This document shows positions 9,975-24,844 of a stretch of DNA of 24,844 bases, piece by piece; within the stretch, counting starts at the first letter, position 1, and every line of letters starts with the position of its first letter. The notes below the pieces were generated by a model. That model did not search any database and was not told where the DNA came from. It saw nothing but the letters and a program-made list of their open reading frames with translations. The DNA lies in IMG/VR virus record IMGVR_UViG_3300032562_000168, positions 1 through 24,844 of that record; one strand, written 5' to 3'. A program made the translations under genes and the position numbers. This DNA is from a virus.

Positions 9975-10126
9975 TAATTTTATCGCTATCAGACTGCATC
10001 TCATACGCATTGATATTTGCCGGCATTGGATTTATGGGAGACTGGAGCTTTTGCCTCGCATGCGGAAGTGCAATGGTGGAAAGAATCAGAAAAAAATTAG
10101 AAAAAAAAGAATTGCCAGGAGACTAA
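9971..10126 (+). CDS. Small membrane protein, 51 residues
   Basis: ATG at 9971 overlaps the methyltransferase stop in an ATGA junction, a sign of translational coupling. The product has a hydrophobic N-terminal half (IILSLSDCISYALIFAGIGF, then MGDW and CLACGSAM) able to span a membrane once, followed by a strongly basic tail (RIRKKLEKKE), so the tail should stay in the cytoplasm. Three Cys lie in or near the hydrophobic part. A holin-like role is not supported by position; function unknown. Confidence 0.55.
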   Translation: MIILSLSDCISYALIFAGIGFMGDWSFCLACGSAMVERIRKKLEKKELPGD

Positions 10127-10131
10127 AAAGT

Positions 10132-10893
10132 ATGAAAAAAATCTGTGTAAATTGCCAAAAAGAATACGAGAGAAAAAATGCAAGGGAATATTGCCCCGAG
10201 TGTTCAAAATTAATAAAAATAGCATTGAGCCGAAAAAGAAATCATGAGTATGATTTGCGTAGAGGAAAGCAATTAAAAAGAGAGAAACACCAACAAAGAC
10301 GAGCAATCGCAAGAGAAGAAAGTGCCAACAATGAAATTACCGAATATGATTCTACTCAAGGGCATGGAATTGTAGTGGTCGTGCCTTTTACAAGAGATTT
10401 TTCAAAAAATAAAATAATGGTTGCCAACGGTAGGATAATCAGACTGAAAAAAACAAACGACGCAATGGCTTTATTAAGAGATGAAATTGCAGAAATAAAT
10501 CACAAATTCTACCAAGCAAAAATATGGCTGGATATTAATATTTTTCAGCCAGACCACATGGGGGACGCTTTAAATTATGTTGATACATTTGCAGACGCAA
10601 TCCAAAATGCTATCGAAATAAATGACAGGTGGTATGCAATAAAAAATCTAAATTGGCAAATAGACAAAGCAAATCCGAGGTTAGTACTAAGAATATTACA
10701 AAATGCAAAAGAACATCACGCAATCTGTCAATTTTGCGGAACTGAGAAGCCATTCTCAGCATTTAACGAAGCGACACAAAAGAGATTAAATGCACAGATA
10801 GAAAATGGCGGTGGGAGGTCGGGACAGAAAATATGCTTAAATTGTAAGGCGATAAAAATACCAAGAGTAAAAACAGTAAAAATAACAAAATGA
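10132..10893 (+). CDS. RusA-like Holliday-junction resolvase flanked by zinc knuckles
   Basis: The open frame reaches back to 10051, but the ATG at 10132, five bases after the previous stop, is the likely start (253 residues). Residues 5-24 carry CVNC and CPEC, a zinc ribbon. The central part (about 80-190) resembles RusA resolvases: a VPFTRDFSKNK strand, a WLDINIFQP strand, the acidic cluster D145-A-L-N148-Y-V-D151 with D155 and D165, and a final QIDKANPRLVLRI strand. RusA cuts four-way DNA junctions during recombination and before packaging. Residues 199-238 carry a second knuckle pair (CQFC, CLNC). Two zinc modules around a RusA core are unusual. The RusA call rests on the acidic pattern and strand order. 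Confidence 0.7.
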   Translation: MKKICVNCQKEYERKNAREYCPECSKLIKIALSRKRNHEYDLRRGKQLKREKHQQRRAIAREESANNEITEYDSTQGHGIVVVVPFTRDFSKNKIMVANGRIIRLKKTNDAMALLRDEIAEINHKFYQAKIWLDINIFQPDHMGDALNYVDTFADAIQNAIEINDRWYAIKNLNWQIDKANPRLVLRILQNAKEHHAICQFCGTEKPFSAFNEATQKRLNAQIENGGGRSGQKICLNCKAIKIPRVKTVKITK

Positions 10894-11279
10894 CCGGCAC
10901 AATGAACTGGGAAAACCTGCGACAATTTAGATGCCCTTATTGCGGACACGCCCTTGAAAAGGGTCCGGCCAGCATAAGATGCACGCATTGCCATTTTAGA
11001 ATTGAGCCGGAGAGATTCAAAAGCATCGCAGAGAACAGGAGGCAGAACCCGACAAACAACATAAAAATAAAGTGGCAGAATTTAGTCAGCGGTTTATGCC
11101 CCATTTGCGGATCAATGCTTAGACCGAATGAAGAAAAAAAGCTGAGATTCCAAAAGTGCATAAACTACGACTGCACATTTAAGATTTCAGACAATAGGTA
11201 CGGCGAAATATTAAACGACCCGAACCACGCAGCAAATATTTTTTATCAACAAGAACATGAAACCAACAACGCAAAATAA
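10890..11279 (+). CDS. Double zinc-ribbon protein
   Basis: The 129-residue product overlaps the resolvase stop by four bases (ATGA). Residues 15-34 hold CPYC and CTHC, and residues about 70-95 hold CPIC followed by CINYDC, so two zinc ribbons are likely. Between them is a basic segment (ERFKSIAENRRQNP). It probably binds nucleic acid or a protein partner. An in-frame ATG at 10902 is an alternative start. Function unknown. Confidence 0.65.
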   Translation: MTGTMNWENLRQFRCPYCGHALEKGPASIRCTHCHFRIEPERFKSIAENRRQNPTNNIKIKWQNLVSGLCPICGSMLRPNEEKKLRFQKCINYDCTFKISDNRYGEILNDPNHAANIFYQQEHETNNAK

Positions 11280-12024: not shown

Positions 12025-12152
12025 ACTGGTCTTTGCGACGGCCTCGCCCGTCAGCCCAGCACGCGCTACGCCACTGCGTACACTTAGACGGACTGACAAA
12101 AAATTAACGGCGCAAAGCGTAAGCGGACGTGTGGGGGAATTAGCCGGCCAGT
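12025..12152 (+). ncRNA. Candidate structured RNA, class unknown, possible pseudoknot
   Basis: This gap between ORFs is GC-rich in an AT-rich genome and has nested long-range complementarity: ACTGG (12025-12029) with CCAGT (12148-12152), and CTTTGCG (12031-12037) with CGCAAAG (12111-12117). Inside are GTCAG (12050-12054) with CTGAC (12093-12097) and ACGC (12061-12064) with GCGT (12076-12079). CCCA-G-CACG (12055-12063) can also pair with CGTGTGGG (12128-12135) in eight pairs with one bulge; that crosses the CTTTGCG helix and would be a pseudoknot, though it competes with the small ACGC/GCGT helix. I see no ORF and no match to a riboswitch or ribozyme I know. It could be a cis-element for the methyltransferase gene 17 bases downstream, or a free RNA. 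Confidence 0.55.
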
Positions 12153-22809: not shown

Positions 22810-23058
22810 ATGTTCTTCTTTACGAAAAAATCAAAGACCATAAACATCCAGGCGGAATCGGCAATTGCGGTAACGCCAGGCGTGACAACATTCGCCCCAT
22901 CAACTCTTTTTATTGGAACGGGCGGAAACATAACCGTGACAACAGCCAACGGAGAGACCGGAGTTGTTTTTAAAAACCTTTCATCAGGCTCAATTTTGCC
23001 AGTGCTCGTGACCGCAGTAACCGCGGCAACAGCAACCGACATAGTAAGATTAAGCTAA
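22810..23058 (+). CDS. Small structural-region protein
   Basis: The 82-residue product is beta-rich, with strands around a conserved pattern: TLFIGTGGNITVTTANGETG, VVFKNLSSGSILPVLVTAV, ATATDIVRLS. Small proteins of this kind with GNI.V and a G..LP core are common between neck and tail genes of many phages, without a named function. Starts after ACAAACAAAAAACATG and is followed by the equally typical 44-residue ORF. Confidence 0.7.
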   Translation: MFFFTKKSKTINIQAESAIAVTPGVTTFAPSTLFIGTGGNITVTTANGETGVVFKNLSSGSILPVLVTAVTAATATDIVRLS

Positions 23059-23204: not shown

Positions 23205-23942
23205 ATGGCAACAAAATTACAAGATTTACCAGCCGCATCCTCCGTCGCAGACACAGACATAGCCTACGAAGTAGCGACGCCAGGAACAGCACCAACGGAC
23301 AAAAAAGTCCCTTTTTCTGTTGTTAAAGCATACATTAAAGCCGACACAAACATTGCAGATGCTATTTCAAAAAAGCATTCGGCGGCAGGACAAATAAACC
23401 AAGCAACCCCGGCAGAAATATCCGCACTCACAGACAAGGCAACTCCAGTCGACGCAGATGTTATTTTGGCAGAAGACTCAGAAACGACTCCAACAGCTTT
23501 TGAAAAAATAAAAATCACCCTGGCACATTTAAAGTCATATTTAAAAACATATTTTGATACGCTTTACGCGCCAATCGGTGGAGGTGGAGGCGTGACATAC
23601 TCTGTGCAAGATAAAACAGACGACTATCCAGTCGTCGTTGCGGATTTAGGAGTTGGAAGCACGCTGACAATGGACAATGCAAGCCCAAAGACATTCACAT
23701 TGCCAACATTGTCCGCCGGAGATTTGGGAAAGCAGATAACCTTTGTTAAAAAAGGCGCTGGCAAGTTAACAATACAAGCAGGCACAGGTCAGAAGATAGC
23801 TGACAGCGGAGCCGCAGGCACGATTTATGATACGGAAGCTGGCGAAACGTACGCATCGATTACTTTAGTAGCAACAACCACAACGCAATGGAACATTGTG
23901 GGATTTGACGGAACGTGGACAACCACTGATCCGTTAGCATAA
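23205..23942 (+). CDS. Tail fibre/receptor-binding-like protein
   Basis: The 245-residue protein begins with two related modules (residues about 1-48 and 66-118), each a strand pattern with ADTDIAYEV or VDADVILAE and ending KKVPFSVVKAYI or KIKITLAHLKSYL, a repeat type found in phage tail fibres. A Gly-rich hinge (GGGGG at about residue 125) leads to a C-terminal beta domain: VADLGVGSTLTMDNASPKTF, LTIQAGTGQKI, TTTQWNIVGFDGTWTT. This resembles fibre domains that carry receptor or trimerisation functions. It directly precedes the probable DGR target, so both may sit in the same adhesion device. Confidence 0.7.
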   Translation: MATKLQDLPAASSVADTDIAYEVATPGTAPTDKKVPFSVVKAYIKADTNIADAISKKHSAAGQINQATPAEISALTDKATPVDADVILAEDSETTPTAFEKIKITLAHLKSYLKTYFDTLYAPIGGGGGVTYSVQDKTDDYPVVVADLGVGSTLTMDNASPKTFTLPTLSAGDLGKQITFVKKGAGKLTIQAGTGQKIADSGAAGTIYDTEAGETYASITLVATTTTQWNIVGFDGTWTTTDPLA

Positions 23943-23961: not shown

Positions 23962-24844
23962 ATGCCATCAACAAGAACACCAAAGTGCCAATTGCCAAAA
24001 ACAGGATGGACTACGCCATATGATGGCGCAGGTTATGACGACGGAGGAATTCAAGCCGGGAGTAAAATCTCTCCGCGATTTATAGACAATGGAGACAATA
24101 CGATAACCGACAGAGTCACAAATAGGCAATGGATAAAGCAACCCGAATTAATAATCCCAGACGGATTAAATGCCAACAATACAGGCGTGGCAAAAGGTTT
24201 ATGGGCAGCCAATACATCATACTCTGCCGGAGACATTGCAGATAAGGCAAGCGATTACTCAGCATGGATTTGCTTAGTGGCACACACGATCATTAATCCA
24301 CCATCATTTTTAACAGCAACGTCATACAGCACTGGCGATGTTGTTTTAGATGCAGCAGGAGACGGAACGTGGTATCAATGTGGAGCGAACGAAACATCAA
24401 ACGCACCAACACTGGGAACAATAGCAGAAGATGTCTCAAATGGAGGATCATGGACACAAATCGCAACCGATGTAAATTCATTATTTGATTTTGATAGAAC
24501 AGCACATCCATCATATTGGAGCCAGAGCATATGGGCAGGAGACGATGGCTCGGGTAATTTAGTGCCAGCACAAATGCAATGGAGTCCCGATGAAAATGGA
24601 ACAGTGAGTGCAGTGGGAAGTTGCAGAGCATTAACCAAGTCAGGAAAGAGCGATTGGTACTTGCCGAACATAACGGAACTTTTGAGCATAGTGGATTACA
24701 GCACATATTTGCCAGCGATTAATGCGACATTCTTTCCAGGAACCAGAACAGATAATTATTACTGGACAAGCACCCCGGACGCCAGCTTCCCGTCCGGCGA
24801 CGCCTGGGTCGTGGGCTTCAGCGCTGGCGGCACCGGCGGCTACG
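23962..24844 (+). CDS. DUF1566/Lcl-type lectin-fold protein, probable DGR target (3' end missing)
   Basis: The gene is open to the window end (294 residues visible). The N-terminus has the DUF1566-associated pattern LPKTGWTTPYDGAGYDDG, then RFIDNGDNTITDRVTNRQW. Residues about 80-170 hold two CBM-like repeats (WAANTSYSAGDIA with WICLVAHT; TATSYSTGDVV with WYQCGAN), a type found in adhesion proteins. Residues about 218-294 are the lectin-like DUF1566 core: CRALTKSGKSDWYLPNITEL, then NYYWTSTPD and DAWVVGFSAG. In DGR target proteins this last part is the variable region. Start context CAAAAAAATCTATG. Role: receptor binding. Confidence 0.85.
   Translation, partial: MPSTRTPKCQLPKTGWTTPYDGAGYDDGGIQAGSKISPRFIDNGDNTITDRVTNRQWIKQPELIIPDGLNANNTGVAKGLWAANTSYSAGDIADKASDYSAWICLVAHTIINPPSFLTATSYSTGDVVLDAAGDGTWYQCGANETSNAPTLGTIAEDVSNGGSWTQIATDVNSLFDFDRTAHPSYWSQSIWAGDDGSGNLVPAQMQWSPDENGTVSAVGSCRALTKSGKSDWYLPNITELLSIVDYSTYLPAINATFFPGTRTDNYYWTSTPDASFPSGDAWVVGFSAGGTGGY
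24757..24844 (+). other. Probable DGR variable repeat (incomplete)
   Basis: From the YYW codons on, composition changes sharply: by hand count 58 of 76 bases from 24769 are G or C, and 20 of 25 codons end in C with none ending in A, unlike the A/T-rich third positions of the rest of the gene. This is what adenine-specific mutagenesis of AAC-rich template codons leaves behind. Confidence 0.75.

Follow-up and report, generated by a model that had tools for sequence, protein, structure and literature searches.

The window analysed here (24,844 nt) is an entire IMG/VR virus record, IMGVR_UViG_3300032562_000168. It encodes a RecT-family protein, an FtsK-like ATPase, DNA methylases, a Mu-type portal, a Mu-like protease and a major capsid protein. 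HNH-endonuclease-type genes are found among these phage genes (179-865, 13271-13774 and 15668-16381). The prokaryotic contigs with a related capsid are mainly MAGs and come from many phyla. Near the right end, a small gene (22810..23058, + strand) displays a weak match to a PHROG family annotated as tail fiber (phrog_12296, E=6.5e-5). The gene at 23205..23942 (+ strand), which has a weak PHROG match with no function given, lies directly 5' of the last gene of the record, and this pairing is kept in two related viral contigs, L001 and L002 (tblastn synteny). The last gene (23962..24844, + strand) encodes 294 amino acids and its 3' end is open at the end of the record. Its product shares 77% identity with the L001 protein and 52% with that of L002, and its C-terminal residues 199-291 match the C-type-lectin-like family Lcl_C (PF07603, formerly DUF1566; Pfam, E=1e-18). 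DUF1566 is a common target domain of diversity-generating retroelements (DGRs; PMC6642488). A search of the PDB for a sequence relative of the protein found none. The AlphaFold2 model, obtained from a 7-row alignment, had a mean pLDDT of 31 and was left unused, so that the lectin fold is taken from the family assignment.

The right end of the record falls inside a GC-rich patch, situated at the C-terminal end of the available part of this protein. From 24769 to 24844, 58 of the 76 nucleotides are G or C (76%, against 44% for the genome) and eight are A. Among the 24,769 windows of 76 nt, at least 58 G+C is reached by three, the mean being 33 and the best value away from the right end 49, and no other window contains eight A or fewer. 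The 25 codons of the patch have a third base C in 20 cases, G in four, T in one and A in none; the best other 25-codon stretch in the main genes has 15 codons ending in C. The initial annotation had reported this composition, these codon endings and a DUF1566/lectin-type domain at the end of the gene: the recounts are exact, the composition is unmatched elsewhere in the window, and the domain corresponds to the Lcl_C match described above. The motif YYWTS is encoded at 24757-24771, and its first four residues (24757..24768, + strand) are identical in L001.

Because the record stops inside the patch, the parts of a DGR were sought in relatives. Five viral contigs encode the target gene or its domain. 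In L002, an Lcl_C/DUF1566 target gene (10001-10756) contains a variable region (VR, from 10637); next come, in this order, a bAvd-family gene (10786-11142), the template repeat (TR, from 11234) and the reverse transcriptase (RT, from 11372). Of the 114 positions compared between the TR and the VR of L002, 19 differ, each with A in the TR; the repeat of L034, aligned over 100 positions, shows 15 differences, likewise all at template A. L005, which represents a different phage, contains two Lcl_C genes with VRs together with a bAvd-like gene, a TR and an RT. The RT was found in L002, L034 and L005 and in partial form in L035, and Avd was found in L002, L034 and L005 and in truncated form in L001. 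The Avd proteins match bAvd, the NCBIfam model DivGenRetAVD (below its cut-off) and PHROG Avd, and the RTs resemble those of phage DGRs. DGRs typically have an invariant GC-rich 3' end in the VR (IMH) and a similar but distinct end in the TR (IMH*); in the relatives the VR ends in ...CCGCCAGTATTAA and the TR in ...CCGCCAGCACTTC.

The patch was aligned without gaps to the TR of L002. Differences are found at 19 of the 23 A positions and at 13 of the 53 other positions (p=2.9e-6). Over the 31-nt core that begins with AACTTC, the corresponding values are 13 of 15 and 2 of 16 (p=4e-5), whereas the 90 nt located 5' of the VR, taken as a control, display no A bias (p=0.54). The template used is that of a relative, and 10 of the 28 differences in the homed part fall outside its A positions, as would be expected if the template had diverged. 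Between the window and L001, the differences within the VR are mostly at codon positions 1 and 2 and those upstream mostly at position 3 (p=0.002); of the 76 rotations compared, the true register gives the best overlap between the differing sites and the A positions of the template.

Since the patch differs from the L002 TR in an A-linked manner and the upstream sequence shows no such bias, we consider that 24769..24844 (+ strand) most probably represents the 5' two thirds of a DGR VR (76 nt, the full length being about 114 nt), carried by a tailed phage whose head genes are Mu-like, a reading to which we attribute a probability of about 0.92 from sequence comparison. The initial annotation had proposed a DGR variable region at 24757-24844. 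This interpretation is borne out by the complete DGR directly 3' of the same gene in relatives and by the A-linked pattern, and its extent needs one correction: the VR is retained from 24769 onward, and 24757-24768 is a fixed flank. The ungapped alignment and the composition support the VR assignment, and its start near 24769 is set by homology to the TR/VR boundary of L002. The invariant 3' end of the VR, TATGTCCGGCCAGTCCGCCAG, was not detected in the window with three mismatches allowed; the window stops before its expected place, and this end of the target gene lies outside the window.

A GC content so far above that of the genome could also have arisen without any DGR, if the end of the lectin gene had been transferred in or had evolved under ordinary diversifying selection. 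We judge this very unlikely, as the differences track the A positions of a homologous TR, the third codon bases stay C, the homologues adjoin Avd, TR and RT, and the VRs and TR of the relatives are likewise GC-rich. The position of the compositional shift at the extreme end of the record could moreover suggest a foreign GC-rich read joined during assembly; this origin is still more improbable, given that the same flank is followed, with the reading frame kept, by homologous sequence in L001 and in two genes of other records (the second targets in L088 and L089, see below).

No TR, RT or Avd was found in the record of the window, which ends before their expected place, and a scan of the window alone found no TR/VR pair, which is what a truncated record would give. 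A degenerate pattern built for the TR or VR of this virus matched no viral contig, and the right flank of the window was not found in the scanned collections. Contig L037, found through the connector protein of L001, may represent the right half of a comparable virus but was set aside: it begins 3' of the DGR site and has no tie to the window.

The VR may be read either as part of a working element or as a remnant. If an ancestor's DGR wrote the patch, the TR and the RT could since have been lost in this virus, as in L001. For Nanoarchaeota, VRs that persist as fossils in the absence of an RT have already been discussed (PMC4372165). L001, the closest relative, possesses a full VR, and in its segment 3030-3430 the avd gene is cut after 37 codons matching L002, with most of avd, the TR and the RT gone. 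The cut avd is followed by an HNH-like ORF that runs into the next conserved gene; this ORF is 41% identical over 68 aa to an HNH-endonuclease gene of the window and has no Pfam match. The ends of L001 and L008 overlap by 138 nt (99.3% identical) and a single sample yielded both, which makes it probable that they belong to the same virus; no RT was found in either record. Judged from its sequence, the VR of L001 is a fossil VR. The RT of L002 is also damaged, a 35-bp deletion near 12140 breaking the frame by comparison with L035 (near 137-171), where the frame is open and which is otherwise identical to L002 over 5.2 kb. The RT of L034 contains a frame shift at a stretch of 12 A that may be an assembly error.

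Against such a loss in the virus of the window stands the manner in which the records end. The records L003 and L004 match L002 exactly for 10,652 nt and stop at a common base, after 16 nt of the VR. The window also breaks inside its VR, whereas the records that cross it are L001, without RT, and L002, with a broken RT. A contig break at the VR suggests a variable population, with the reservation that the cases are few and that the sequence common to TR and VR can also break assemblies. We hold the loss of TR and RT in this virus to be possible, on the doubtful side, and consider that it probably retains a TR and an RT of its own beyond the right edge of the window. The initial annotation had stated that both must lie there; we take this as likely rather than necessary, these parts being missing in the nearest relative. 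The relatives form a series from a complete cassette (L005), through a broken RT frame (L002, perhaps L034), to the loss of the cassette with retention of the VR (L001), and finally to close capsid relatives with other genes in the slot (L009, L010, L012, L015 and L041).

Relatives with capsids 74-85% identical to that of the window have other genes between the capsid and the connector, which indicates that the DGR sits in an exchangeable module. In DGR-less relatives, the same slot contains a protein of 540-630 aa, possibly a fibre, that consists of short near-identical repeats such as TETGVARITATTSK (L012:7068-8966, L009:16924-18552 and L041:4655-6493). The record of L034 (38,095 nt, with L103 and L104) has pieces of the RT at both ends, suggesting that the genome is circular and was opened within the RT gene. 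No match to the window capsid was found among its head genes, yet its DGR is 77-83% identical.

A DNA search with the invariant VR end detected a further VR in the records of L001 and L003, and a search with mismatches allowed detected another remote VR in the record of L034. The corresponding second target genes are located in the early region of three related records (L088:4546-5184, - strand; L089:4333-4986, + strand; L104:2457-2876, - strand). All three combine the N-terminal motif SxCCxAPMxxxVQCExCGSxGK with a C-terminal Lcl_C domain, and their neighbours are recombination, single-strand-binding-like or lysis genes. HNH-endonuclease-type genes similar to those of the window are found in L088, next to the second target, and in L037. 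When the remote VR of the L003 virus is compared with the TR of L002, whose genotype is identical, 18 of 34 A positions and 1 of the 74 remaining positions are changed (p=2.5e-10). In the record of L034, 22 A positions and five others differ, four of these five being in the first 6 nt. The VRs of the second targets would thus have been written from the same template family.

The window itself contains a single Lcl_C match, that of the target gene. When its left edge is aligned to the record of L001, the second target is placed about 1.5 kb beyond the edge. This cysteine-motif target is the least expected part of the system and is located outside the window. A speculative proposal, to which we give a low likelihood, is that one DGR diversifies both a lectin whose gene lies among those of the virion, namely the gene of the window, and an early, zinc-ribbon-like cysteine-motif protein that is not part of the virion and acts in the cell, for example against variable host factors, and that the virus of the window has this second target about 1.5 kb past its left edge. 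Binding of zinc by the cysteine motif and absence of the protein from the virion are both guesses.

The DGR of Bordetella phage BPP-1 is composed of mtd, avd, TR and brt, and its target has a C-type-lectin fold by family. Every anatomical feature seen in the relatives points to the same mechanism, but the target here is Lcl_C instead of Mtd and the RT is only a distant relative, Bordetella phages being found among the hits below 60% identity. A closer parallel is provided by the Bacuni phages of Bacteroides uniformis, whose DGR has one adjacent and one distant DUF1566-type target; in phages F1, F2 and F4 the VR is at the 3' end of the targets and the order is target, Avd, TR and RT (PMC8143477). 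The RT of Bacuni F2 is 38% identical to that of L002. The phage and the host are nevertheless different, the adjacent target of F2 is otherwise unlike the gene of the window, and the second target here, known from the relatives alone, is an early-region gene with the conserved cysteine motif. The tentaclin phages nd4 and nd12 also use one TR for two different C-type-lectin targets, but both are in the DGR cassette and one has Ig-like domains (PMC10743442), whereas the second target described here is short and far from the cassette. The DGR is therefore of an already known type, its two-target layout being known from the Bacuni phages. Roux et al. state that their survey misses remote targets (PMC8144416).

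By analogy with known DGRs, the TR located just 3' of the target would be transcribed, and an error-prone reverse transcriptase acting with Avd would copy the transcript, misreading the A of the template. The cDNA would then replace the VR at the 3' end of the Lcl_C target gene. AAC-type codons would become NNC codons, and amino acids on the binding surface would thereby change. The target is probably a receptor-binding protein, and its ligand would be a host receptor.

The locus extends the known DGRs by a lineage from uncultivated phages whose heads are Mu-like, and it indicates that composition alone can reveal when a record ends in a VR. In this virus group, the same template serves a gene of the virion locus and an early gene, so the role of the second target is testable.
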